Source: Parietichytrium sp. I65-24A
Taxonomy: Eukaryota > Sar > Bigyra > Thraustochytrida > Thraustochytriidae
Direction of reading: 5' to 3'
Assembly: GCA_012862575.1 (NCBI GenBank)
Contig: BLSF01000023.1
Coordinates: forward strand, 434,001-498,000
DNA: 64,000 bases
Shown here: piece after piece, positions 32,763-46,881 of the stretch
Position numbering within the stretch: the first letter of the stretch is position 1
Layout: every line of letters starts with the position of its first letter
The notes under the pieces: generated by a model
Told to the model about the DNA's origin: nothing
Seen by the model: the letters and a program-made list of their open reading frames with translations, nothing else
The model's database searches: none
Translations under genes and position numbers: made by a program

Positions 32763-33828
32763 CAAGTGAAGCCACGAAGTGAGAGCGTAAACAAACCCTA
32801 TCGGAAGGTGGGGTGAAGGGGTCCAAGGCGTTGCAAGACTTCACGCATGATTCCATAGGATCGCATAGACGTACGGTGTCTCCAAGCGCGGACGGCTGGT
32901 TTCCGAAATCTCAACCAATTTGCACAGCTCCTTTTATTTAAATGCGTGCTCGAAATACGAGAGGGAGCAATTCGAGATTGGTGCGCCGCTCTGTCAAGCC
33001 TCATTCGCCAAACTCTTCGTCTGTATATCCGGCACCTCCAGATTATGAATCTCCTTCGAAACCTCGTGAAAGCCATTTGGATCTGCCAACTTGGTATAGC
33101 GAGCCTATAATCCCTTGGTTCGCGTGGCAATGTCAAAGACTTGGGAAGGTATTTTTATTTAAAAAAAGAGAGATCAAGGGAAGTGAAAAGGAGGATAGCG
33201 CAGTTCACATTCCAGTGAAGAATGTATAAGATGCTTGACAATCTTGACAAGTGCTACAAGGAGGTCGTGAATGAATGGGTTCCGACCTCATGTCGAACGC
33301 CTGCCACTCGAGTACCCTCTTCAAGTGCTCTTACAGCTCTCACAGTGACTTCTACTGAACCCTGTAGCCCCGCCTGTCCTGCTGCGGGAAGATCGTATCA
33401 ATGAACATTCATTCATTCCCCGCTCTGAGGACATAGATTGATGTGGTGTCACACATTGTCACACAGTGCCAGAGAGGTAAAATAAAAAAAAGAATAAAAA
33501 AATGTTGAACTGCAAGCGGGAATATGGCAAAATGAATTTATTTTTTCAAACAGCAGGTAAGAGCAGGAAGAGGAAGGGGAAAAAGGAACGAGAAGCATTT
33601 TAAGAAAGCGCAGATTCTCGAGGAAAACGAGGCAGGTGAAGGAGAAAAATTCGATACTCAGTGCCACCCACGTCCGTGCCATGCGCGGTGTGCAGTAAGA
33701 AGAACGCGCAAGAAGAGGTCCGGCGGGAANATGTCAGAGTGTCATTCACAAGTGGGTGTCAAGGGTTACACGTTGCGGGACTCGTCGTAGGTCACCAAGA
33801 AGGGAAGCACAGAGGGCTCAAAGGACCC

Positions 33829-33930
33829 GGACACTCGGACACTCGGACACTCGGACACTCGGACACTCGGACACTCGGACACTCGGACACTCGGACACTC
33901 GGACACTCGGACACTCGGACACTCGGACAC
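33829..33930. repeat. GGACACTC octamer array, 12.75 copies
   Basis: Twelve perfect copies and a partial copy run head to tail with no interruption, ending about 170 bp upstream of the golgin ATG. Because the unit is 8 bp, every frame reads the same cyclic peptide (GHSDTRTL), which explains spurious open frames here. Perfect identity suggests an actively slipping array. Confidence 0.97.
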
Positions 33931-34102: not shown

Positions 34103-35752
34103 ATGGATCCCCAGGGAGCCTTACCTGCAGTGGGCACAGAGGGGGGCGCAAGTGAAGTTGTGCCGCTGAGCGAAAATGCGAACGGGCTGGAAGAGGCAGC
34201 GGAAGAGGCGGGCGATAGGTCTGGCAGCGACGAGAAAGACAGCAACGATAGTGATCACGACAATGAAATCGACAATGGGAATGGGAACTTGCTCCCTGAG
34301 GAGCTTCAGGCGCAACCGGAGGTCTTCGGCAACACAGATGAAAGCGGGGTGGAAGGCGACAAGGCCTTGGGCACGGCGGTGGAGCATGAGGTGGCTAGCG
34401 AGTTGGCCAAAGAATCTCAGAGGACAAAGGAAGACGAGGTCGCACATCTGAAGAGGCTTTTAACTGTTGCGAAGAGATCAATTGGGGAACTAAAGAAGCG
34501 GGTTGTGGAGCGCAATAGCGTCGTCACGAAGCAGGAGCAGGTCATGCGGGATATGAAGGAAAAGCAAGAAAAGGTGGTCGGATTAGCCAAGCGCGCGCAA
34601 AAGCGCATCGAAGATTTAGAGTCGAGGCTCAAACAAGCAGAAGTCTACGCGGAAGAGGAAGCTCCGGAGGCCACCGAGTTGAGAGGCGTAGCTCTGCGCA
34701 TTCAGGATGGCAATGGGCGGGTATGGTGCCTGTGCGAGGAGATTGTGGAAGATGAGGTCACGCTCAGGTGGATGGATGAGGATGAGATGTATTGCAAAGT
34801 TGGGGATCACGACTTGCCCTTTGAGCTCCCTGCGATGTGTATCTCGGCTGAGCAGTCAGCGATACTCGTTGAAAGCGAAGGGAAGATGCGGAGCGAGCTC
34901 GCCGACATCCAAGACAGGCTAAACAAATACAGAGTGCGAAGTGAAATCATGCGCAAGCAGAAGGATTCCGAGATCGAGCGACTCTCCGATCAGTTATCCC
35001 GTACAAAGCAGAACACAGTGCTCAGCGAAGACTACCACGCGCAGCTAGCTGCTGCTCGTGCGGAAGTCGATCGTCTTAGCGAAATTGAAATGGAGAGAAT
35101 GAAAGAGATGCAGACCCTCAAGTCACAGAACCAGCAACTCTCGCACCAAGTGCACCAGTTGCGTACCAGGATCGATGGGTTGAAGAAGGCCGCAGAGAGC
35201 GGCACTGCGAAAGCTAGTGACGGCTCTGACAACGCGCTCGGTGCGGCCAAGAATTCTTCGCTGCATTTCACCCCTCAACAAGAAGAGAGGTCTGCGAATG
35301 TAGAACTTATTGAGCAATATACGAAGCTAGAGAGGGAGTACGAAAACTACCGCTTACATACACATAATCTTTTTGCCGAGAAGGAAAAGCGAACGAAAGA
35401 GCTAGAGGCGGCCTTAGAGAATGGTGTTCCAGGACGCGATGCAGACGTTTCCTCCGTGCCAAGCGAGAGTCAGGAAAACTCAAGAGCCACAGCTAAATTT
35501 TCGCGGGCCGCGATCCAGCAGCTTGAGCGCCAGCTTGCAGAACAAAACCAAGCTGCAAGTGTTGAGCGAGCATACATAAAGAATATATTGGTCAAATACC
35601 TCTGCTCTGGGGAAACTGAAAGAGGTCCAATTGAAGCTGCTCTTGCAACAGCTCTACAATTTACACCAGAGGAGGTGGAGCAGATTCAGAATCAAAAGTC
35701 GTCAAGCTTCTCTGCCAAGTCATCGTCGGCGTCGTCATGGTTCAAGTTTTGA
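34103..35752 (+). CDS. GRIP-domain golgin
   Basis: A 549-aa single-exon protein. The frame runs further upstream without an ATG, and the ATG at 34103 gives MDPQGALPAVG. Residues 110-205 and 265-480 are long heptad-rich coiled coils (for example IGELKKRVVERNSVV). A compact segment at about 205-265 (GRVWCLCEEIVEDEVTLRWM) interrupts them. The C-terminus is a GRIP domain: AYIKNILVKYL around 500, then ALQFTPEEVEQI, with the conserved aromatic residue that contacts Arl1. A Ser-rich tail ends in SWFKF. GRIP golgins tether vesicles at the trans-Golgi by binding Arl1-GTP. It is convergent with the PhoD-like gene, with only 114 bp between stops. Confidence 0.85.
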   Translation: MDPQGALPAVGTEGGASEVVPLSENANGLEEAAEEAGDRSGSDEKDSNDSDHDNEIDNGNGNLLPEELQAQPEVFGNTDESGVEGDKALGTAVEHEVASELAKESQRTKEDEVAHLKRLLTVAKRSIGELKKRVVERNSVVTKQEQVMRDMKEKQEKVVGLAKRAQKRIEDLESRLKQAEVYAEEEAPEATELRGVALRIQDGNGRVWCLCEEIVEDEVTLRWMDEDEMYCKVGDHDLPFELPAMCISAEQSAILVESEGKMRSELADIQDRLNKYRVRSEIMRKQKDSEIERLSDQLSRTKQNTVLSEDYHAQLAAARAEVDRLSEIEMERMKEMQTLKSQNQQLSHQVHQLRTRIDGLKKAAESGTAKASDGSDNALGAAKNSSLHFTPQQEERSANVELIEQYTKLEREYENYRLHTHNLFAEKEKRTKELEAALENGVPGRDADVSSVPSESQENSRATAKFSRAAIQQLERQLAEQNQAASVERAYIKNILVKYLCSGETERGPIEAALATALQFTPEEVEQIQNQKSSSFSAKSSSASSWFKF

Positions 35753-35866: not shown

Positions 35867-38800
35867 TCACTTTTTTTCGTTCAGTGCGACCCCAGCAACC
35901 ACGAGTATCGCCCCAACACTGCCACAAAGTGGCCAGAACTCCGCAAATGTTATAGGCTGAAACACTCGGGCCTTATCTTCCGCATGATGCCAGCGAAGCC
36001 TCTGAACCTCGCCGACTACCTGTTGAATCAACGCAAGTCTAGCATTTTCCGAGAGCGCCGAATCGATTCCGTCCCTCTCAGGTGACGCAAGTGCCTGAAA
36101 ACAAAGTTCATTGACTTGACTGGTTGCCCTGTCGCCGAAAACACGTCCGATGGCGACCTCCGCCTTGTCGTACGCCATACCGACCCCTTCTGCAGCTTCT
36201 GACAAGTAGCTCTCCTCGGCAAGGACAAACAGTTCTGAACGGTCTTGATTGGAAGCCAACATGTGCCATTTTTCGAGTCTCTTGCGCACAGCTGCATCCA
36301 GCCTTTCCCAGCAAATGTCCAGCCAGAGAAATTCACGCTTGACCTGAAATTTGTTTTCTGTACTTTCTCCAGACTCTGTTGCCTCTTCGTCAAGCCCAGG
36401 TACCCTCTCGCTCGGAGCCGAGGGAGGAGCAGCGCTTTCGTTCTCAACTAAGCTTAAATAATCATCTTCGGGGAAAGCCATGCCCTGGTATTCGGCTCGT
36501 ATTTCGGCGTCGGCTTGCATTAAAGCCGCGCGTTCTATGAACGCAGGATCCTCTTTCGGAGACTTGACGATGAAATTTCGACACCTTGACAAGGCTTCGT
36601 CGAGCCAGAAGCAGGGTTGATTTGCAAAGTAAGTTCCTGCAGGACTGGAGTCTAAAGACCCTGCAAGTCTAAACTCGAAATGAAAATCCGACGGCTTCTC
36701 GCGCATGGGTCCAAATTGAACCAAGCCATACATGTTCTGGCAAGTGAGCATAGACTTGTGAGAGAACCGAAGTCGTGGCGATTCCACATCACCCTGGTCT
36801 GCCACTGGGAGGTCTAGAAACCCCTCCTTTGGAAATGGGGTTTCTAGCAGTAGTTCGTTTGCTCTCATGGCCAAGGAACCGACCGAAAGTTGCTGAATGA
36901 CAAGACTTGAGTCATCGCAAGAAATTGTACTGGAGCGAAACCCAGCGTTGTCAGAGCGGCAGAGAACAATGACTTGCCGGTCACGCTGTTCGCGCTCCCA
37001 AGCCAGGAGCAGTCGGGACAACCTCATGGACTGCTCGCCTAGAGAGTCGCCGTGTGAAGTCACCGCACCAGCAATCGCTGGGATATCTGAAAGCACAATC
37101 AGCTTACGAACTTGATCTGAGCGGAGCTTTAAAGCCGTTTCTAGCTCGCCCCAGTCAGCCGGAGCGACCATTTCCGAGTGCTTCAGGAGTGATCTCTTGT
37201 AGCAAGGGAAAGAGACCACTGCGACTTCGTTCCCAAGCGTGATCGGCTGCGAGGAGATATTCGGCCCCATCAAAGCAAGCTGATAGTCCCTCGCCACGGA
37301 CAGAGCAGCCTCCCTGACTACCTTGCGCCAGGCTACCAAATCAGGCTCATAGTCAAAGCATTTAGGTGCCGCAATGTCCTCTTCTCTAACAACAAAAAGG
37401 TGTGACCCAGTCCGTAAAGCCGACTGGACGTCAGCAAAAGACCATGCTCGCCGATATAAATTGCGTATCACGCCAATAATAGAAGCCAAAACCAAGTCTT
37501 GATCCTCTGGACTTAATTTTGATGGATGCTTTCCATTGCTATGCAGCCTAACCGTTGCTGCGATTGCGTGTGCATCGTCTTCTAAAGCCACCTGGCCACC
37601 GAGATGTGCAGTAACTATTGGAGACAGGCATATTTTTTCCCTCAGCTGGTGTTGAGCAATAGCGCCCCACAAACTTGCGCGAGCCGGGTCAGGAAGCTCC
37701 CGCGTAGAGTCACCGTGCACCACGAAGAGATTCACAAGGAATTCTGGCGCCGGTATCTTGTTACCGGCTTCGAAAGGGGCTGGCATTGTGCGAAAGACCG
37801 CCGCTCCAGCCGTTTTGCTTGTGGAGAGCTCGAAACTTATGCCAGGAAATCTGACCTCATACAAAGTGTCCCCTCGAAGGCACTCTGACAACGAGAACAG
37901 AAGAGGTTTGTCAACCAGAGAGGCTTGCTGCATAGTGAGTACGACAGTGTCGCGAAGCACGTCTCTCACCACGCACTCTACGATGGTCGCCTGATTGACT
38001 TCGATTAATATGTTTGCACTGTCGTTGGTAACGAGACCCACAACTGGACCAAGCAGAGCTTTGGGAACCTCGCCCTCGCCTGGCAGAGTTTGTGCTGCTC
38101 CAGCAAGCCGAAGCCGTGTTTGCATGTGGCCAGTGCATGGCACATGCACTTGCGCGTAGAACTTGCACGAAGCCGTCTGAATCGGAACACTATGCGTAAA
38201 GCTCATTAATGTGCCTTCTTCCCCCGGAAGCTGGAGCGTTCCGTCGCGCACCTCCCCCGTTGCGTCTTTCAAGTTCTTCAAAGGATGATAGCAGTCACTA
38301 AGAGGGGGAACGACGACCTGCACGACCTGCCCAGGTGCATTGGTTTCGAGGCCCTTCAAGGGAAACTCAAGCTTGGTATGACAAGGAAAGGCGAACGGGC
38401 CACTTCCGCAAATGATGGTGATTTGCGCCGTGGAGCTGGCGCGGTGAATTATGGAGAGCAGCTTTTCGCACATCTGAGCATTTTCGGGCCACTCATTGTG
38501 AGCTAGGTCAAGCGAGGGAGTGTAGCGCCGGAAAGGGAGCAGCGGGCGGTCGAGAACCAATAAGTATCGACCCTCTTTCTGTGAGAGCGTTGACTCGATG
38601 AATTCGAGTTGACGATGGGAGATGATTGGAGACTGTGGCCAGGGTAAGGACGCGCCGCGGTCGTTGAATTGTGAAGAGATAGTGTCAACGGTGAGAATGC
38701 CGAAAGTGGGAGTGTACTGAACGAAAGCACAGTCCGAGTCGCTGTCCTCGACGGGTTCCGCAAGCGACAGCGCGAGCTGGTACTCGCGATGAATCTTGCG

Positions 38801-39898
38801 AACGAGGCGAACGAGAGGTGCCGGGTACGGGCTGTCTCCTCCAGCGTTTGTTTCGCACGACAGCGTGTTCCTCCGTGGTAGCGTGGGCAGGTCGAGGTCC
38901 GAGAGTACCATTAGGTTGGCGCACGTGGACAGCACATCCGCTACCGGCGGCAGGTTCCAAGCCGCCCTGTACGCGCTGCGAATTTCCTCCTCAAACACCT
39001 TCTGCAGCGCCGTTGTGTCCGCATCGCTACCAGCACGCTTAAGCAGCACTGCGCACCTGTCCATGGCGCGTCGCAAGTCCACCTGGCCGCCCGCGTGCAC
39101 CACCAGGTCTACTTCCCCTCTTTGCGCCATGCTTTGTATGTCTCGCCACACCGCGCCCGCAGGCGCCCCAGGCTGCGCATCTCGAATGAACAGCGGCGAG
39201 TGGCCACACACGCACACTGCGCGCACCGCACTGTCGTGCTTGAGCGTTGTGAACTCTGCTGTGCGCGATGTGATCTCCACCACTGCCTCCCTCTTGGCCT
39301 CAGCCTCAGCGCGTGCTGGTTCCTTTTCCGTTTCTTCACCTCTGTCCGCAGCACTTGCTGCCGTTTCTTCTGCTGTTTCCTTTTCCGTTTCTCCTCTGTC
39401 CGCAGTACTTGCTGCCGTTTCTTCTGCCGTTCCCTCCTCCGTGCCCGCAGTATCTGCAGTTATTTTCTCAGTGTCTGCAATGTCTGCAATGTCTGCAATG
39501 TCTGCTGTTTCGTTGCTGTCTGCGTCCCGTACCAACACAACGGTGTAGCGTACGCCAGGGTCCAGCCCGCGCACGCGGAACGTTCTCAGCACGGTGTCTG
39601 GCGAGGCCCACTCCCTCGCCACTTCTCTGCCGTCCACGCGCACGCTCGCGGCCACGCGCACCGCCACGCGCACCTCCGCGCACAGCACGGCGAAGTCCTG
39701 TCCCACGCGTCCCACCCAGGGGCCCACGCCCACCGCACCTAGCGCGCACCCCCGCGCCTCGGGACGCATGGGACGAGTGGGACGCGTGGGACGCGTGGGA
39801 CGCGGGGCCGGCGGCACCGCAGGGTTGGTGACGGAGAGGGACTCGGCGCGCCGCTGCAGGGCGCGCAGGTCGTCCAGCGCGGACGCGGCGTTGCCCAT
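35867..39898 (-). CDS. Tandem PhoD-like metallophosphatase-related protein with degenerate metal sites
   Basis: A 1343-aa single-exon protein. I start at ATG 39898 because it gives MGNAAS, a strong N-myristoylation signal. The frame runs 60 codons further to an ATG at 40078, but that part is a low-complexity THT/TTH run. The chain holds two copies of the same unit: an Ig-like N domain (copy 2: GPVVGLVTNDSANILIEV), then a PhoD-like domain. Paired motifs are VVHAGGQVDL / TAHLGGQVAL, IRSAYRAAWNLP / IRNLYRRAWSFA, LMVLSDLD / LFVVREED and REYQLAL / RDYQLAL. PhoD enzymes need GDQ and DDHE/D ligands, which are lost here, so both copies look like pseudoenzymes. The tail (GSVGAILVVAGVALNEKK) is a likely membrane segment. 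A TADIADIAD and EETAAS repeat sits in the first N domain. Confidence 0.72.
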   Translation of the reverse strand: MGNAASALDDLRALQRRAESLSVTNPAVPPAPRPTRPTRPTRPMRPEARGCALGAVGVGPWVGRVGQDFAVLCAEVRVAVRVAASVRVDGREVAREWASPDTVLRTFRVRGLDPGVRYTVVLVRDADSNETADIADIADIADTEKITADTAGTEEGTAEETAASTADRGETEKETAEETAASAADRGEETEKEPARAEAEAKREAVVEITSRTAEFTTLKHDSAVRAVCVCGHSPLFIRDAQPGAPAGAVWRDIQSMAQRGEVDLVVHAGGQVDLRRAMDRCAVLLKRAGSDADTTALQKVFEEEIRSAYRAAWNLPPVADVLSTCANLMVLSDLDLPTLPRRNTLSCETNAGGDSPYPAPLVRLVRKIHREYQLALSLAEPVEDSDSDCAFVQYTPTFGILTVDTISSQFNDRGASLPWPQSPIISHRQLEFIESTLSQKEGRYLLVLDRPLLPFRRYTPSLDLAHNEWPENAQMCEKLLSIIHRASSTAQITIICGSGPFAFPCHTKLEFPLKGLETNAPGQVVQVVVPPLSDCYHPLKNLKDATGEVRDGTLQLPGEEGTLMSFTHSVPIQTASCKFYAQVHVPCTGHMQTRLRLAGAAQTLPGEGEVPKALLGPVVGLVTNDSANILIEVNQATIVECVVRDVLRDTVVLTMQQASLVDKPLLFSLSECLRGDTLYEVRFPGISFELSTSKTAGAAVFRTMPAPFEAGNKIPAPEFLVNLFVVHGDSTRELPDPARASLWGAIAQHQLREKICLSPIVTAHLGGQVALEDDAHAIAATVRLHSNGKHPSKLSPEDQDLVLASIIGVIRNLYRRAWSFADVQSALRTGSHLFVVREEDIAAPKCFDYEPDLVAWRKVVREAALSVARDYQLALMGPNISSQPITLGNEVAVVSFPCYKRSLLKHSEMVAPADWGELETALKLRSDQVRKLIVLSDIPAIAGAVTSHGDSLGEQSMRLSRLLLAWEREQRDRQVIVLCRSDNAGFRSSTISCDDSSLVIQQLSVGSLAMRANELLLETPFPKEGFLDLPVADQGDVESPRLRFSHKSMLTCQNMYGLVQFGPMREKPSDFHFEFRLAGSLDSSPAGTYFANQPCFWLDEALSRCRNFIVKSPKEDPAFIERAALMQADAEIRAEYQGMAFPEDDYLSLVENESAAPPSAPSERVPGLDEEATESGESTENKFQVKREFLWLDICWERLDAAVRKRLEKWHMLASNQDRSELFVLAEESYLSEAAEGVGMAYDKAEVAIGRVFGDRATSQVNELCFQALASPERDGIDSALSENARLALIQQVVGEVQRLRWHHAEDKARVFQPITFAEFWPLCGSVGAILVVAGVALNEKK

Positions 39899-40515: not shown

Positions 40516-41733
40516 ATGGCGCAGCTGCTGCCGCGGGTGGAGGTGCTTGGGCCTCTGGCTACGGGCGCCACTAGCGAGTGAGTTGGCTAGTCTCTTTCTT
40601 TTCACATTGTTTGGTTCGTTTGCCGGTCTGCTTGCTTCTTCGTTGCTGCATTCGGTTCGCTTATGTGTGGGTGTTTCGACGTGGCGTTGAGGCATGTGGC
40701 TGACATCTGTGTTCTTTGCAACGATTTGTGCAGGGTCAAGCTCGGCAGATTGAGGGATACAGGCGAGCGACTGGGTGAGTGAGCGCAGGGGATGTTTGGG
40801 CGAGTCGAAGCCTTGTAGCTGACGGGTCGGCAGTTGCTTTTGTCTCGGGGTGGCGATTGCTTTTTGTTTCAATTGGGCGCAGCTATCAAAGTCATCGACA
40901 TCTCCAAGGCAGCGAAAGATGCAGACATGATCCAGCAAGTGCATCGCGAAAAAGCTGCTCTGGAGGCGCTTGGCACGGCAGGGCAGAGCCAGGTTATTGT
41001 CAAGTTTCACGGGGCCTGTAAAGATGCTAGCTCTCTCTATTTCGTGTTAGACCTCGTCCCAGGCGGCGAACTTCACAAGCATATCAGACTCGCTCCAAAT
41101 CGAAGGCTACCGGAGCCGTATGCGCGAACCTATGCGCGCCAACTCGCTGGGGCACTAGACTACATGCATGCCAAGGGTTGGGTGTACAGGGATCTGAAGG
41201 CAAATAACGTCGTTCTCTCCGGGGAAGGGAAATGCATTCTTGTGGACTTTGGCCGAGCCAAGCATATCGGAGACGGGCCCGATGCCCGGACGCTTACGGC
41301 GTTTGGCCTGGGCCACCACATGGCGCCGGAGCTCGCGCAACAGCTGCAGCATGGCTATCCGGTAGACTGGTGGGCTTTGGGGGTTTTGCTGTTTGAAATG
41401 CTTGAGGGCACCCCGCCATTCCCATACGTTTTCCAGAACAACTTGGGTGATCAAAGCAAGCAAGAATACTTGGAAAACCTTTTAAGTGGAATCGATGACA
41501 CCAAGTGGAAAGGGTGCCACGCAATCAGCGACGGCGCCAAGTCAGTTTTGAGCGGGCTCGTAGATCCCGACGAATCAACAAGATGGAATGGCCAGCAATT
41601 TGTCGAGAACGACTGGACGAAGCAAGTTGATCCAACAGCAGAAATTGAAAGCCACCCCTATTACCGCACAGAAGAGGTGCGCACTGTTCGAAAGGCAGCT
41701 GCTCCTGCGGATGACCCTTTTAAAGATTGGTGA
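40516..41733 (+). CDS. Serine/threonine protein kinase, AGC (PKA-like) type
   Basis: Three exons, 40516-40577, 40734-40774 and 40883-41733, give 317 aa. The tiny first exons supply the glycine-rich loop: exon 1 ends in ATGATS, exon 2 reads VKLGRLRDTGERL, and exon 3 starts AIKVIDI with the ATP-binding lysine K37. Further motifs are YRDLKANN (catalytic D138; Tyr replaces His as in many AGC kinases), DFGRAK (D156), HHMAPEL and PVDWWALGVLLFEML. The C-terminal extension ends PADDPFKDW, which resembles the PKA-type FxxF/W tail. No regulatory domain is attached. The activation segment (DGPDARTLTAFGLGHHMAPE) is short and has a single Thr pair candidate. cAMP-dependent kinase catalytic subunit-like is the best description. 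Targets are unknown. Confidence 0.88.
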
Positions 41734-43599: not shown

Positions 43600-46500
43600 T
43601 CATTGACCGTTCCCGAGGATCGCGATCTCGTCCTCGGCTGTGGGGTTTGCAACCGCTTCACTATCAGCGGGTTCCGGCGTGGTGAAGCTGGCCATTATTG
43701 TGCAGCAATGAGTGCATACCAAGCCCCTCTCGGATCCCACCACGGTTTGCTTTGAGCTGCAGTCCGCGCAAGTCAGTCTGCCGCAAACGGTGCAATGTAC
43801 GTAATTTCGCAAAACCCGCTTTCGCAAAGGCTTCGAGCAGAGCATGCAAACTGACTTCACGCGCGGCGGCGATAGGATCGGGCGATAAAATTTGCTTGGT
43901 CGAGGAACTGGCTCTCCAAGCGAAGCAGCGGCAGCCGCGTTGATGGACTCGATCCACTGGTCCCTCAGTTTAACTGACGGGGCGATTACCGTGAAGGACC
44001 GAGTCGTTGTGCGAATATTGAAAGAGGCATCGTTAAACTCAATAAACGGATTGGAAAGTGTGTTTCCCTGTTTTGAAAGGAGCGCAGGCAGAAGTGATTC
44101 ATCACTCAACTTTGCAGACTCTTGGGGGCTTGGCCGCTCTGCAAAGCATTCGATGATCGGATAGGCTCTGCGAAACCTGGCCTTTGGTATCTTTGACCTA
44201 AAATTGTAGGCCTTGGAAGAGTACAGGAGCAGGTCATTCATCAGAACAAAATGACATTTGGATGGCCTCGAGTGAGTGCAGATTTTTACCAGATCCCCCT
44301 GGAGAAGTACTTTTCTCGAGCCAGAGACTAGCTCTGGAGGTCGTCGGCCTTTTATTTTCCCGAGTAACGCAAATCGGCTCGACTGCAGCGATGTTTCGAT
44401 ACGGATTAACTCATCAGAGTTTACCTTGTTATTGATATCAAGCTGAACGGCGGCGAAGTATTCCTCAAACTTGGAAGCCTGTGATCGTAGTCCTTGCAAC
44501 GCTGCATTTTCGCCGTCCATCCCCGATACATCTCTCAAGATGGCTTCGTATTGCCCGAGCCTCACCACTGGCAATTCAAAAAAGTAGTCAAGCGGTCGGC
44601 CATTAGAAAGTGAATTTCGCTCGCAGCTTCTTCTCAAGGCGTTAAAGTCCTCGCTTTGAAGCAACTCCATCACCAATGGCTTGCGAGGAATATACGCAGC
44701 ATACAATTTGAGGAATGGTAGCAAACTTTGGCACAAAAGTACGAGTGATTCTACGCTTGACTGTGTGCTGGTGGACTGCACTCTCTCAGTGACACCCTGG
44801 TGCAAAATCTCGAGTTGCAGGAGAGCATGGAGAGCTAGAATGCAACTTGCTGAGCCCAATTGTTTGCGAAGCCGCTCATTGTGCTTGTGAGTCGACCTCG
44901 ACTGCTCTTCAGATTTGCCAGTCGAGATGAATCCGCCTGCGATAAAATCCTGGATTGGACGAACAAAAGCTTCCACGAGCACTTCGAGATCGGCCGTAAA
45001 TAACTTTTCTTGCTCCCAGAATTCTCGCGCAAGATTCTCGATAGTCGAGCCACTATTTTTCGCGTCCATTTTGCTTTCCGGTGGCGTGCTGGGAGGTTGT
45101 AACGTCAGTATGTCTGGCAAATCTCTCTCGAGGTACGAAACGAACTCGTCCGAATCCATCTTTGGATTCGGGTCCGAGGCCAGGTTGGTTTCATCATTTT
45201 GCTGTTCCTGAGACGAACTTGAGCTTGTTGCTGAAGGCGGTTCTGTGCCATTCTCGCGACCCGATTGCACAACTGCTGATTCGCTCTCGTTTCGCGGAAC
45301 AGGTGTCGACAACTTCGGCGTGGCTGGCGACGGTGGGGCGGAATTCACTTGGGAAATGCAAGCAACCCAGGAATCCCTCTCCTGTGCGCTTCTTGCGTAC
45401 AGCTCAAGTACTTTGAAGGGAGTCTTCACGAAAAAGCGAATTTCCTTGGGCTCGACAAAATCTGAAGAATGAGCAAGCCACTGCTTGGTTTCCGCGTCTG
45501 CAGGTTCTGCTTCACGAAAATTTACGTAGACGGTTTGCTCATTCTCTCCGAGAATGGAAAAGTCCCCCGGGTATAAAATACGCCGCAATCTGACCGCCTT
45601 CTCGTCAGTTCCATGCGCAGAAATGTTGCTATCAACTGGCTTACTCGACAACTCCGAGTAGATTAAAAGATCGCTGAATAGAAAAAACTCGAGGAGCTCG
45701 ACCCTCGAGCCCCCTTTGCTAGCTTTTGCGAGTGTGTCATGTTTGACGAGCTCTCGGCCAAAACGCTGGCCGGAAATTAAATCGATTCTGCGATTCCTTC
45801 GAACTGCTCTAATTCGCCGCTGAACATTGGCCAGCTGAACACGTTGCTCCACACCATGCACTACGTCCTCGAGGTACTTGCCAGTTGTAGACATTCGAGC
45901 GACCGCCTCGATGAGGACTTCCTTGGAGGCAGATCTCTCATCGCCCTCATCGAGTATCTGCGTCAAAAATAATTCGTACCTCGAAATACGCTGAATGGGC
46001 ATGACCATCATAGCGTCAAGCGTTATACCCTGCGTTCGAGTGAGTCGAGACACAACAAAGTCAGCGAATTCAAAGTACTGCTCTTTCAGTCGAGCAATAG
46101 CCCTTTCTGCCTGTCGATAGCCGGCAGCATACTGCGCATAGAGTCTGAAGATCGTGGAGAATGCCCCAACCAGTCGGCAGACCGACTCGACGCGCTCAGA
46201 CCGACCCTGCTCACTCTCATTGACTAGCTGATGCAACTGTTCGCAGAACTCCAAGTTGAGCGCCCTTATCTGCTCGATATACATGAAGGCGGCAGCGACG
46301 TCCGGGTCGCTCGCGATGGCGCGTTTCCATCGAGAGTCCTGAACCGCCAATTGGTCTATATACTCGCGGACCAGCAGGCGAAGGTATTCGAGGTAATTCT
46401 CTTCAGAGTGTGCCAGCTCATGGATGAGCATGGTCTGCTTATCCAGAGCGGAAATATCCGCTGAGAGGCGTTTCAGCGTCGGCGAAGCATCATTCTCAGC

Positions 46501-46881
46501 CTGTTCAATTCCTCCTTCCTGGGCGATCTTGCCCAATCTAGCAGGCTCGTCCTGAGCCTGTTCGCTCCACCAGGCCTGCTCGTCCATCATCTGCTTCCCA
46601 TCCGAATGCGACGACGCCCCTCTATGCAAAAGACCTTTCGTCGCCAAGTCATCATCAACATCAACATCAACATCATCATCATCATCATCATCATCGCCTT
46701 GCACGCCTTTGGCCGCGTCCGGCCCGTGACCAGCTGCTTCCTCCGCGGCAGCTTGAGGGCTGCGCGGCGTCAGGCTCTTGGGCTTTGGCGGTATCGGCGG
46801 CAGCTCGCCGGCGGAAGAGTAGTGCCCGTCTACGTCTCCCCAAAGGCGCTCAGCCACCAGGTCGTCGTCGTCGCTGTCCAT
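43600..46881 (-). CDS. Rho guanine nucleotide exchange factor with DH-PH-DH-PH-FYVE-like zinc finger
   Basis: A 1093-aa single-exon protein. The acidic N-terminus has PPIPPKPKS and an Asp-rich run (DDDDDDDD) near residue 62. DH domain 1 spans about 135-345, with IHELAHSEENYLEYL (CR1), and MMVMPIQRISRYELFLTQIL (the hallmark CR3). PH domain 1 spans about 365-510. A second DH-like domain (about 600-810) starts NLAREFWEQEKLFTADL but its CR3 is degenerate (ELPVVRLGQYEAIL). PH domain 2 (about 830-985) includes CHFVLMNDLLLYS and LRDQWIESI. Residues 1011-1063 hold eight cysteines in four C-x2-C pairs with HCTVCGRLTCADCS, a FYVE-like finger that lacks the R(R/K)HHCR basic patch. It should activate a Rho/Rac GTPase at membranes. 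Confidence 0.85.
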   Translation of the reverse strand: MDSDDDDLVAERLWGDVDGHYSSAGELPPIPPKPKSLTPRSPQAAAEEAAGHGPDAAKGVQGDDDDDDDDVDVDVDDDLATKGLLHRGASSHSDGKQMMDEQAWWSEQAQDEPARLGKIAQEGGIEQAENDASPTLKRLSADISALDKQTMLIHELAHSEENYLEYLRLLVREYIDQLAVQDSRWKRAIASDPDVAAAFMYIEQIRALNLEFCEQLHQLVNESEQGRSERVESVCRLVGAFSTIFRLYAQYAAGYRQAERAIARLKEQYFEFADFVVSRLTRTQGITLDAMMVMPIQRISRYELFLTQILDEGDERSASKEVLIEAVARMSTTGKYLEDVVHGVEQRVQLANVQRRIRAVRRNRRIDLISGQRFGRELVKHDTLAKASKGGSRVELLEFFLFSDLLIYSELSSKPVDSNISAHGTDEKAVRLRRILYPGDFSILGENEQTVYVNFREAEPADAETKQWLAHSSDFVEPKEIRFFVKTPFKVLELYARSAQERDSWVACISQVNSAPPSPATPKLSTPVPRNESESAVVQSGRENGTEPPSATSSSSSQEQQNDETNLASDPNPKMDSDEFVSYLERDLPDILTLQPPSTPPESKMDAKNSGSTIENLAREFWEQEKLFTADLEVLVEAFVRPIQDFIAGGFISTGKSEEQSRSTHKHNERLRKQLGSASCILALHALLQLEILHQGVTERVQSTSTQSSVESLVLLCQSLLPFLKLYAAYIPRKPLVMELLQSEDFNALRRSCERNSLSNGRPLDYFFELPVVRLGQYEAILRDVSGMDGENAALQGLRSQASKFEEYFAAVQLDINNKVNSDELIRIETSLQSSRFALLGKIKGRRPPELVSGSRKVLLQGDLVKICTHSRPSKCHFVLMNDLLLYSSKAYNFRSKIPKARFRRAYPIIECFAERPSPQESAKLSDESLLPALLSKQGNTLSNPFIEFNDASFNIRTTTRSFTVIAPSVKLRDQWIESINAAAAASLGEPVPRPSKFYRPILSPPRVKSVCMLCSKPLRKRVLRNYVHCTVCGRLTCADCSSKQTVVGSERGLVCTHCCTIMASFTTPEPADSEAVANPTAEDEIAILGNGQ
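46655..46697. repeat. CAT microsatellite inside the GEF coding sequence
   Basis: CATCAA units pass into eight CAT units. Read on the minus strand they encode the VDVDVDDD and poly-Asp run of the GEF, so length variation stays in frame. Confidence 0.9.

Follow-up and report, generated by a model that had tools for sequence, protein, structure and literature searches.

A tandem DUF7800-PhoD-like protein of Parietichytrium, a candidate membrane-tethered double pseudo-phosphatase

Introduction

What does a PhoD-like protein do when it carries its domain twice and metal-binding residues have been replaced in both copies? PhoD enzymes free phosphate from organic compounds. The question is raised by a single-exon gene in a 64,000-nucleotide stretch of Parietichytrium sp. 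I65-24A DNA (contig BLSF01000023.1, positions 434,001 to 498,000; this whole stretch is called the window, and coordinates are counted within it). The gene is an intact frame of 1343 codons (39898..35867, minus strand) that starts at its first in-frame ATG and contains no internal stop. It was the sole match of the protein search in the 42.5 Mb assembly.

The original prediction, made from the sequence alone, was of a tandem PhoD-like protein in which both copies have lost their metal ligands. On balance we think it probable, with considerable room for doubt, that the gene encodes a double pseudo-phosphatase that is tethered to a membrane, faces the cytosol and acts as a scaffold. In this proposal, an ancestral single-unit DUF7800+PhoD protein would have been duplicated within the gene, and both PhoD domains would have kept their core without several of the Asp, Tyr and Asn residues that hold Fe and Ca. 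The protein would be fixed to the cytosolic side of a membrane by a C-terminal tail anchor and perhaps an N-terminal myristate as well, and there the pair of units would serve as a protein-interaction or ligand-binding scaffold. Inactivity, topology and scaffold role are the parts of this proposal that we infer.

Domain organisation and internal duplication

The organisation of the protein is given below.

35867..39898, minus: tandem DUF7800-PhoD-like protein, single-exon gene, 1343 residues (intact frame; sole genome match)
39881..39898, minus: MGNAAS start, fitting the N-myristoylation motif (Gly2, Ser6; from the sequence)
39524..39733, minus: half 1 N-terminal beta-sandwich, DUF7800-like, residues 56-125 (DUF7800 at 14.0 bits, below cut-off and non-distinctive; hhalign alignment)
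39281..39523, minus: acidic Ala/Glu/Thr-rich insert, residues 126-206, mostly minisatellite DNA (composition; tandem repeats)
38081..39235, minus: half 1 PhoD-like domain, residues 222-606 (hhalign as far as the DDH region; model and Foldseek)
37784..38080, minus: half 2 N-terminal beta-sandwich, DUF7800-like, residues 607-705 (DUF7800 at 16.6 bits, 18 in the whole protein, below cut-off)
36584..37741, minus: half 2 PhoD-like domain, residues 720-1105 (hhalign jointly with half 1, as far as the DDH region; model and Foldseek)
35942..36583, minus: C-terminal region, residues 1106-1319, without a match in the Pfam scan
35882..35938, minus: C-terminal hydrophobic segment FWPLCGSVGAILVVAGVAL, followed by NEKK, tail-anchor-like (hydropathy)

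The likeness of the two PhoD-like parts (residues 211-606 and 691-1100) is well above chance, with a Smith-Waterman score of 67 that none of 1000 shuffles reached (35.9 +/- 5.1). Six more scoring schemes gave z values of 3.6 to 6.1, the score being reached by 0 or 1 of 500 shuffles, and BLASTP found a core with 12 of 32 residues identical (E 0.002). The two-sequence alignment has 23% identity, and the copies are thus strongly diverged. Ordered motif pairs run through both halves, at residues 268 and 765 (HAGGQ/HLGGQ), 310 and 815 (YRAAW/YRRAW), 333 and 838 (SDLD/REED) and 373 and 872 (YQLAL in both); these, and MGNAAS at residue 1, are where the original prediction had put them. Its internal duplication of an ‘immunoglobulin-like plus PhoD-like’ unit likewise held, with DUF7800 + PhoD-like as the unit, and an origin of the tandem protein by duplication of this unit is supported by computation.

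Replacement of the metal-binding residues

The motifs that bear on catalysis are located as follows.

39083..39097, minus: HAGGQ in place of the GDQ metal motif, half 1 (alignments)
38891..38902, minus: SDLD in place of DDHD/E, half 1 (alignments)
38768..38782, minus: YQLAL of half 1, taken as the YQHLG counterpart (judged by eye from its distance downstream of DDH; the joint alignment does not pair it with YQHLG)
38396..38407, minus: GSGP in place of GDVH, half 1 (same in three alignment modes)
37592..37606, minus: HLGGQ in place of GDQ, half 2 (alignments)
37376..37387, minus: REED in place of DDHD/E, half 2 (alignments)
37271..37285, minus: YQLAL of half 2, at the YQHLG region of bacterial enzymes (alignments)
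36950..36961, minus: CRSD of half 2, probable counterpart of SGDV(H) (half-half alignment; other alignments place D1037 or a gap)

In comparison with bacterial enzymes, GDQxY reads GGQVD in half 1 (G271, D274) and GGQVA in half 2 (G768, A771), and DDH reads S333-D334-L335 and R838-E839-E840, respectively. Neither half keeps the Asp or Tyr of GDQxY, or the first Asp or the His of DDH, whether in the joint alignment or in three placement modes. In half 1, DDWN falls in a gap, and the Asp and His of GDVH are replaced by S499 and P501. The column of the iron Cys is occupied in half 1 by T171 or D185 when the acidic insert is included and by C229 when it is removed, and in half 2 by S731, or D730 by eye. 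The GDxH position of half 2 depends on the alignment: a trimmed half 2 aligned jointly with half 1 gives S982, and other alignments give D1037 or a gap. Among 15 trial alignments, all five over residues 605-1060 placed S982 on GDVH, while the ten over longer ranges placed D1037 (six) or a gap (four); trimming to 605-1060 hence favours S982.

The weight of these replacements can be judged from Bacillus subtilis PhoD, for which PMC4223295 reports activity as abolished by C180A, D265A, N271A, N272A and D436A and drastically lowered by D207A and D266A. From motif spacing we infer that D207 belongs to GDxxY, D265 and D266 to DDH, N271 and N272 to the position of DD in DDWN, and D436 to GDxH. Because several residues that hold Fe and Ca are missing, phosphoester hydrolysis by the PhoD mechanism is not expected of either half. 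The original claim that both copies lost their ligands thus stands for GDQ and DDH, with the qualification that half 1 retains one DDH aspartate (D334). It gains a motif that had not been named, GDxH, which becomes GSGP in half 1 and whose place in half 2 varies with the alignment. As far as sequence comparison goes, ligand loss in both halves is well supported, and the protein combines homology to an enzyme family with loss of essential catalytic residues, as a pseudoenzyme does.

Relationship to DUF7800 and PhoD

The whole protein matched Pfam DUF7800 (PF25077) at residues 615-645, in half 2, with E 0.0033 and 18 bits, below the cut-off of 27 bits. Excised N-terminal parts scored 16.6 bits (half 2) and 14.0 bits (half 1), both also below it. 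Two unrelated Pfam families nearly equal DUF7800 in the half 1 part (13.8 and 13.1 bits), and a Pfam scan of half 1 as a whole gave no DUF7800 row, so Pfam alone does not identify this part; it was identified as DUF7800-like by profile alignment. The originally proposed ‘Ig-like’ domain is therefore retained as a beta-sandwich at the start of each half, with DUF7800 as its closest Pfam family, weakly matched and non-distinctive in half 1.

The PhoD relationship was likewise faint in direct searches. PF09423 (PhoD) gave no row at E up to 10 for the whole protein, either half or either PhoD-like part; an NCBIfam scan of the protein returned 0 families; PDB sequence searches with the protein or a two-half profile gave nothing meaningful; and a plasmid tblastn with the protein found no PhoD match and no relative. 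(The PhoD family comprises metallophosphatases of the cd07389 type.) A profile-profile comparison was needed. Against 74 bacterial DUF7800+PhoD proteins, the two-half profile reached an hhalign score of 52.0 (P 7e-6, probability 84%), compared with a mean of 17.4 and a maximum of 27.7 for 200 column shuffles and 17.8 for the reversed profile, bearing out over the N-terminal ~206 columns the relationship for which the original prediction had proposed this check. Half 1 alone scored 38.7. The aligned path follows the motif order, starting at the DUF7800 GP motif and passing GDQ before it reaches DDH; a second match of 47 columns had P 0.2, leaving the C-terminal half not significantly covered. 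For scale, a profile of three bacterial enzymes itself reaches B. subtilis PhoD (2YEQ) only at E 0.03, and the reversed halves scored -1.9 and -4.0 bits against a hidden Markov model (HMM) of the enzymes.

The bacterial subfamily was first reached via a 42-residue peptide, and a three-record alignment then fetched 80 genomic relatives. These loci are the best 80 of at least 571 relatives, retrieved with the patterns AMIFDDH and LGDQ[VI]YA; invariance at GDQ and DDH is therefore partly due to selection, while GSC, DDWN, DSR and GDVH were unselected. Of 86 loci (L026-L111), seven had no frame under the motif filter and L029 and L030 were dropped as belonging to another subfamily, giving 77 in the HMM. 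Six of the seven filter-failing loci, read later, keep GDQ, DDH and GDVH, and the seventh (L031) entered the 28-frame comparison below. A length filter reduced the 77 proteins to the 74 of the hhalign profile, and after a redundancy filter 45 of the 62 eligible sequences entered the structure models. In four scanned proteins of this actinobacterial/cyanobacterial subfamily DUF7800 precedes PhoD with 110.9-126.2 bits, and in an Azoarcus enzyme it lies ahead of the PhoD domain with 34.5 bits; L029, of a different subfamily, has 23.6 bits, under the cut-off.

Structure models were built for residues 42-612 (half 1, 47 sequences) and for a half 2 trimmed to residues 605-1060, from input alignments that held bacterial enzymes in both cases. 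Predicted template modelling scores were 0.60 for half 1 and 0.71 for half 2, and many core blocks of half 1 had a predicted local distance difference test score (pLDDT) of 74-88. In Foldseek searches of the PDB, half 1 matched a dimetal phosphatase, purple acid phosphatases and Rv0805 best (E 5e-7 to 3e-5, prob 1.00), with PhoD 2YEQ at rank 6 (E 3.1e-5, prob 1.00). Half 2 matched lupin purple acid phosphatase (E 3.5e-10, template modelling (TM) score 0.53) and acid sphingomyelinase-like proteins, and among viral models giant-virus PhoD proteins came first (E 2.4e-16, TM 0.61, prob 1.00). The models support a PhoD fold without being independent proof of it, because the input alignments contained enzymes. 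The proposed structural check of each half thus gave metallophosphatase matches for both, with 2YEQ among the listed matches for half 1 only, at moderate confidence. Both PhoD-like domains appear to keep the metallophosphatase core, and a metallophosphoesterase/PhoD relationship of the tandem protein is supported by these profiles and models.

Membrane attachment

No 19-residue stretch of the protein is more hydrophobic than residues 1321-1339 (mean hydropathy 2.05), in agreement with the C-terminal membrane segment of the original prediction. Windows starting within the first 59 residues reach 0.95 at most, so that the N-terminus has no comparable segment. The protein is probably membrane-anchored, and its MGNAAS start, which fits the myristoylation motif rule, may carry an N-terminal myristate. 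The hydrophobic C-terminus followed by NEKK, the lack of such a segment at the N-terminus and the MGNAAS start together lead to the prediction of a cytosolic, membrane-held protein, whereas B. subtilis PhoD is secreted.

Comparison with other PhoD proteins

For comparison, 28 other PhoD frames were read, of which the same genome supplied five, viral contigs 11 and plasmid records 12. All three motif patterns are matched by 27 of them; the remaining frame, L005 from the same genome, ends ahead of GDxH, perhaps owing to an intron. The five ordinary PhoD genes of this genome (L002-L006) carry GD..Y and D[DN]H[DE]. At L030 the regular expression had caught another GD-like string; the true motif in its frame is SGDQIYAD. 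Of 13 viral PhoD loci, found with a pattern that held WDDH, 11 were read (L010 and L018 were left out). The N-terminal domain of half 1 weakly matched that of L006 by phmmer (E 0.0074 in a five-sequence search). Neither a DUF7800 match nor an intact L027 relative turned up in searches of the genome, both searches being without a positive control.

The closest organisation is that of the actinobacterial ‘alkaline phosphatase D family’ (for example Rubrobacter indicoceani WP_119071096, L027), in which DUF7800 is likewise followed by PhoD; the GP motif, the GDQ, LYR..W..LLST and DDH regions and the strand preceding GDVH also come in the order seen in the tandem protein. These enzymes differ in being single units with intact metal motifs, with ~16-23% identity to the tandem protein, and, unlike it, show no hydrophobic C-terminal tail by eye in the frames examined. 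B. subtilis PhoD (2YEQ) is a fold match of the half 1 model; it is described in PMC4223295 as a secreted Fe/Ca enzyme with complete ligands, in contrast to the replacements in the tandem protein. The PhoD-like proteins of Orpheovirus and Fadolivirus, the top viral fold matches of half 2 (TM 0.61 and 0.60), are single-unit by length, at 444 and 434 residues, unlike the tandem protein. Among the matches listed in the open-licence literature, judged by their entries, there was neither a PhoD pseudoenzyme nor a tandem PhoD.

Alternative explanations

Several observations weigh against a double pseudo-phosphatase of PhoD origin. Half 1 keeps D334 (the second Asp of DDH) and D405 (DSR motif) and perhaps the iron Cys (C229 or C231), and some alignments let half 2 keep D849 (DDWN column) and D1037 (GDVH). 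Half 2 alone has an hhalign score of 26.8, within the shuffle range; the significant hhalign match spans only the first ~206 columns; and the assignment of the C-terminal PhoD portion, resting on the half-half alignment and on enzyme-containing models, is partly circular. Enzyme HMM scores are 4.4 bits (half 1) and 3.1 bits (half 2), each equalled by one of 1000 shuffles. The models have a mean pLDDT of 56.9 (half 1) and 63.6 (half 2), many PDB TM-scores are ~0.3 by query length, and the 50 PDB matches listed for half 2 do not include 2YEQ. When the PhoD parts were compared with the genome's five other PhoD proteins, none of the ten comparisons rose above shuffles (best 21 of 200). No orthologue was seen in plasmids or in three viral scans with the whole protein or a half, a type of scan that reaches close relatives only.

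The retained residues are the basis for supposing that the halves are still enzymes, or bind metal, through a rebuilt site, formed in half 1 from D334/D405 plus a Cys and in half 2 from Asp or Glu residues. C229 lies on the iron-Cys column once the acidic insert is removed, and D1037 lies on GDVH when the longer stretch is placed. However, the Asp of GDQ, the Tyr of GDQxY and the first Asp of DDH are replaced in both halves, and the single substitutions of D265 and D436 in B. subtilis that abolish activity, like D207A which drastically lowers it, make this explanation unlikely. We regard it as very unlikely that the gene is a lineage-specific, decaying one, in which the enzyme was lost and the frame is open by chance, without present function. 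The missing orthologue and the minisatellite-derived DNA inserted in frame in half 1 would fit, but the frame has 1343 stop-free codons, base composition is codon-position-specific in both halves (guanine plus cytosine at positions 1/2/3 of 0.63/0.47/0.66 in half 1 and 0.61/0.43/0.53 in half 2), and motif order is kept across two strongly diverged copies. Least likely of all, in our view, is that the halves belong to another beta-sandwich/alpha-beta family and resemble PhoD motifs by chance: the lack of a Pfam PhoD match, the PDB sequence and profile searches without a meaningful hit and the empty NCBIfam scan would agree with this, but the hhalign score lies far above shuffles with motifs in the right order, DUF7800 is matched weakly at the expected place in half 2 (and more weakly, non-distinctively, in half 1), and the models of both halves gave fold matches.

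A variant concerns the order of events: catalytic loss would have preceded duplication, and the old cleft would have been refitted as a new binding site kept in both halves, giving a two-site membrane sensor of a phosphorylated or lipid ligand. The joint alignment has 47 nearly invariant columns that are changed in both halves, 14 of them to one and the same residue; G271/G768 and S499/S982 are among these 14 (binomial 1.3e-6 at 6.6% chance identity, 1.4e-4 at 10%, 0.002 at 13%). With the halves placed singly (mafft --add), eight of nine runs shared 6 of 34, 6 of 37 or 7 of 42 changes, equalled by 167 to 254 of 10000 permutations, and the ninth shared 4 of 36, equalled by 2206 of 10000; after this independent placement the joint-alignment statistic was downgraded. 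The change of the GDQ Asp to Gly (G271/G768) was common to both halves in all nine of these runs, and that of the T-S-P strand Ser to Asp (D450/D938) in eight. The Ser-Gly-Asp of GDVH becomes Cys-x-Ser in both halves in the joint alignment (C497..S499, C980..S982), and S499/S982 was common in none of the nine. Loss of at least the GDQ aspartate before duplication is plausible, while for the full sequence of early loss and a refitted site the shared changes are suggestive only, and we consider that variant quite unlikely.

Neighbouring sequence and source organism

Minisatellite arrays at 39314-39505, with 54-, 12- and 9-base units that are all multiples of three, encode much of the acidic insert of half 1. 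Another repeat, a perfect array of the 8-base unit CGGACACT with 12.9 copies, lies at window positions 33828-33930. The convergent, tail-to-tail neighbour of the tandem gene (34127-35752, plus strand) encodes a coiled-coil, golgin-like protein with a C-terminal GRIP domain (41.2 bits). The divergent neighbour (40516-41733, plus strand) is a protein kinase gene, with a kinase domain of 156 bits over 40834-41730 and, by eye, apparent short introns close to its start. Further on, 43600-46881 (minus strand) encodes a 1093-residue protein that matches RhoGEF in two stretches, as well as PH and, weakly, FYVE; it is another doubled-domain protein nearby. Together with the two neighbours, it shows the genome to be eukaryotic.

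Elsewhere in the assembly, large modular polyketide synthases are suggested by long open frames on contigs C66 (5583 codons) and C7 (4460 codons), in which several acyl-carrier domains lie spaced apart. The comparison with ‘algae’ in the original prediction found no support, as neither the chlorophyll a/b-binding family nor phycobilisome proteins had a match anywhere in the 42.5 Mb assembly. As plastids often encode the phycobilisome subunits, the absence of these carries little weight; from the missing chlorophyll a/b-binding match, the source organism may be non-photosynthetic.

Proposed role and significance

Since its ligands are lost and the VPS29 fold provides a precedent, the tandem protein is likely to be a scaffold or ligand-binding platform. 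VPS29 is a small single-domain subunit that is not PhoD and has neither DUF7800 nor a membrane anchor. It is described in PMC9636581 as a metallophosphoesterase fold that serves as a scaffold in retromer, and by analogy a similar role is likely for the double pseudo-phosphatase. If this is true, the tandem protein would show a PhoD enzyme fold turned into non-catalytic machinery, as with VPS29, and would provide a case for testing the function of a non-catalytic DUF7800 + PhoD unit.

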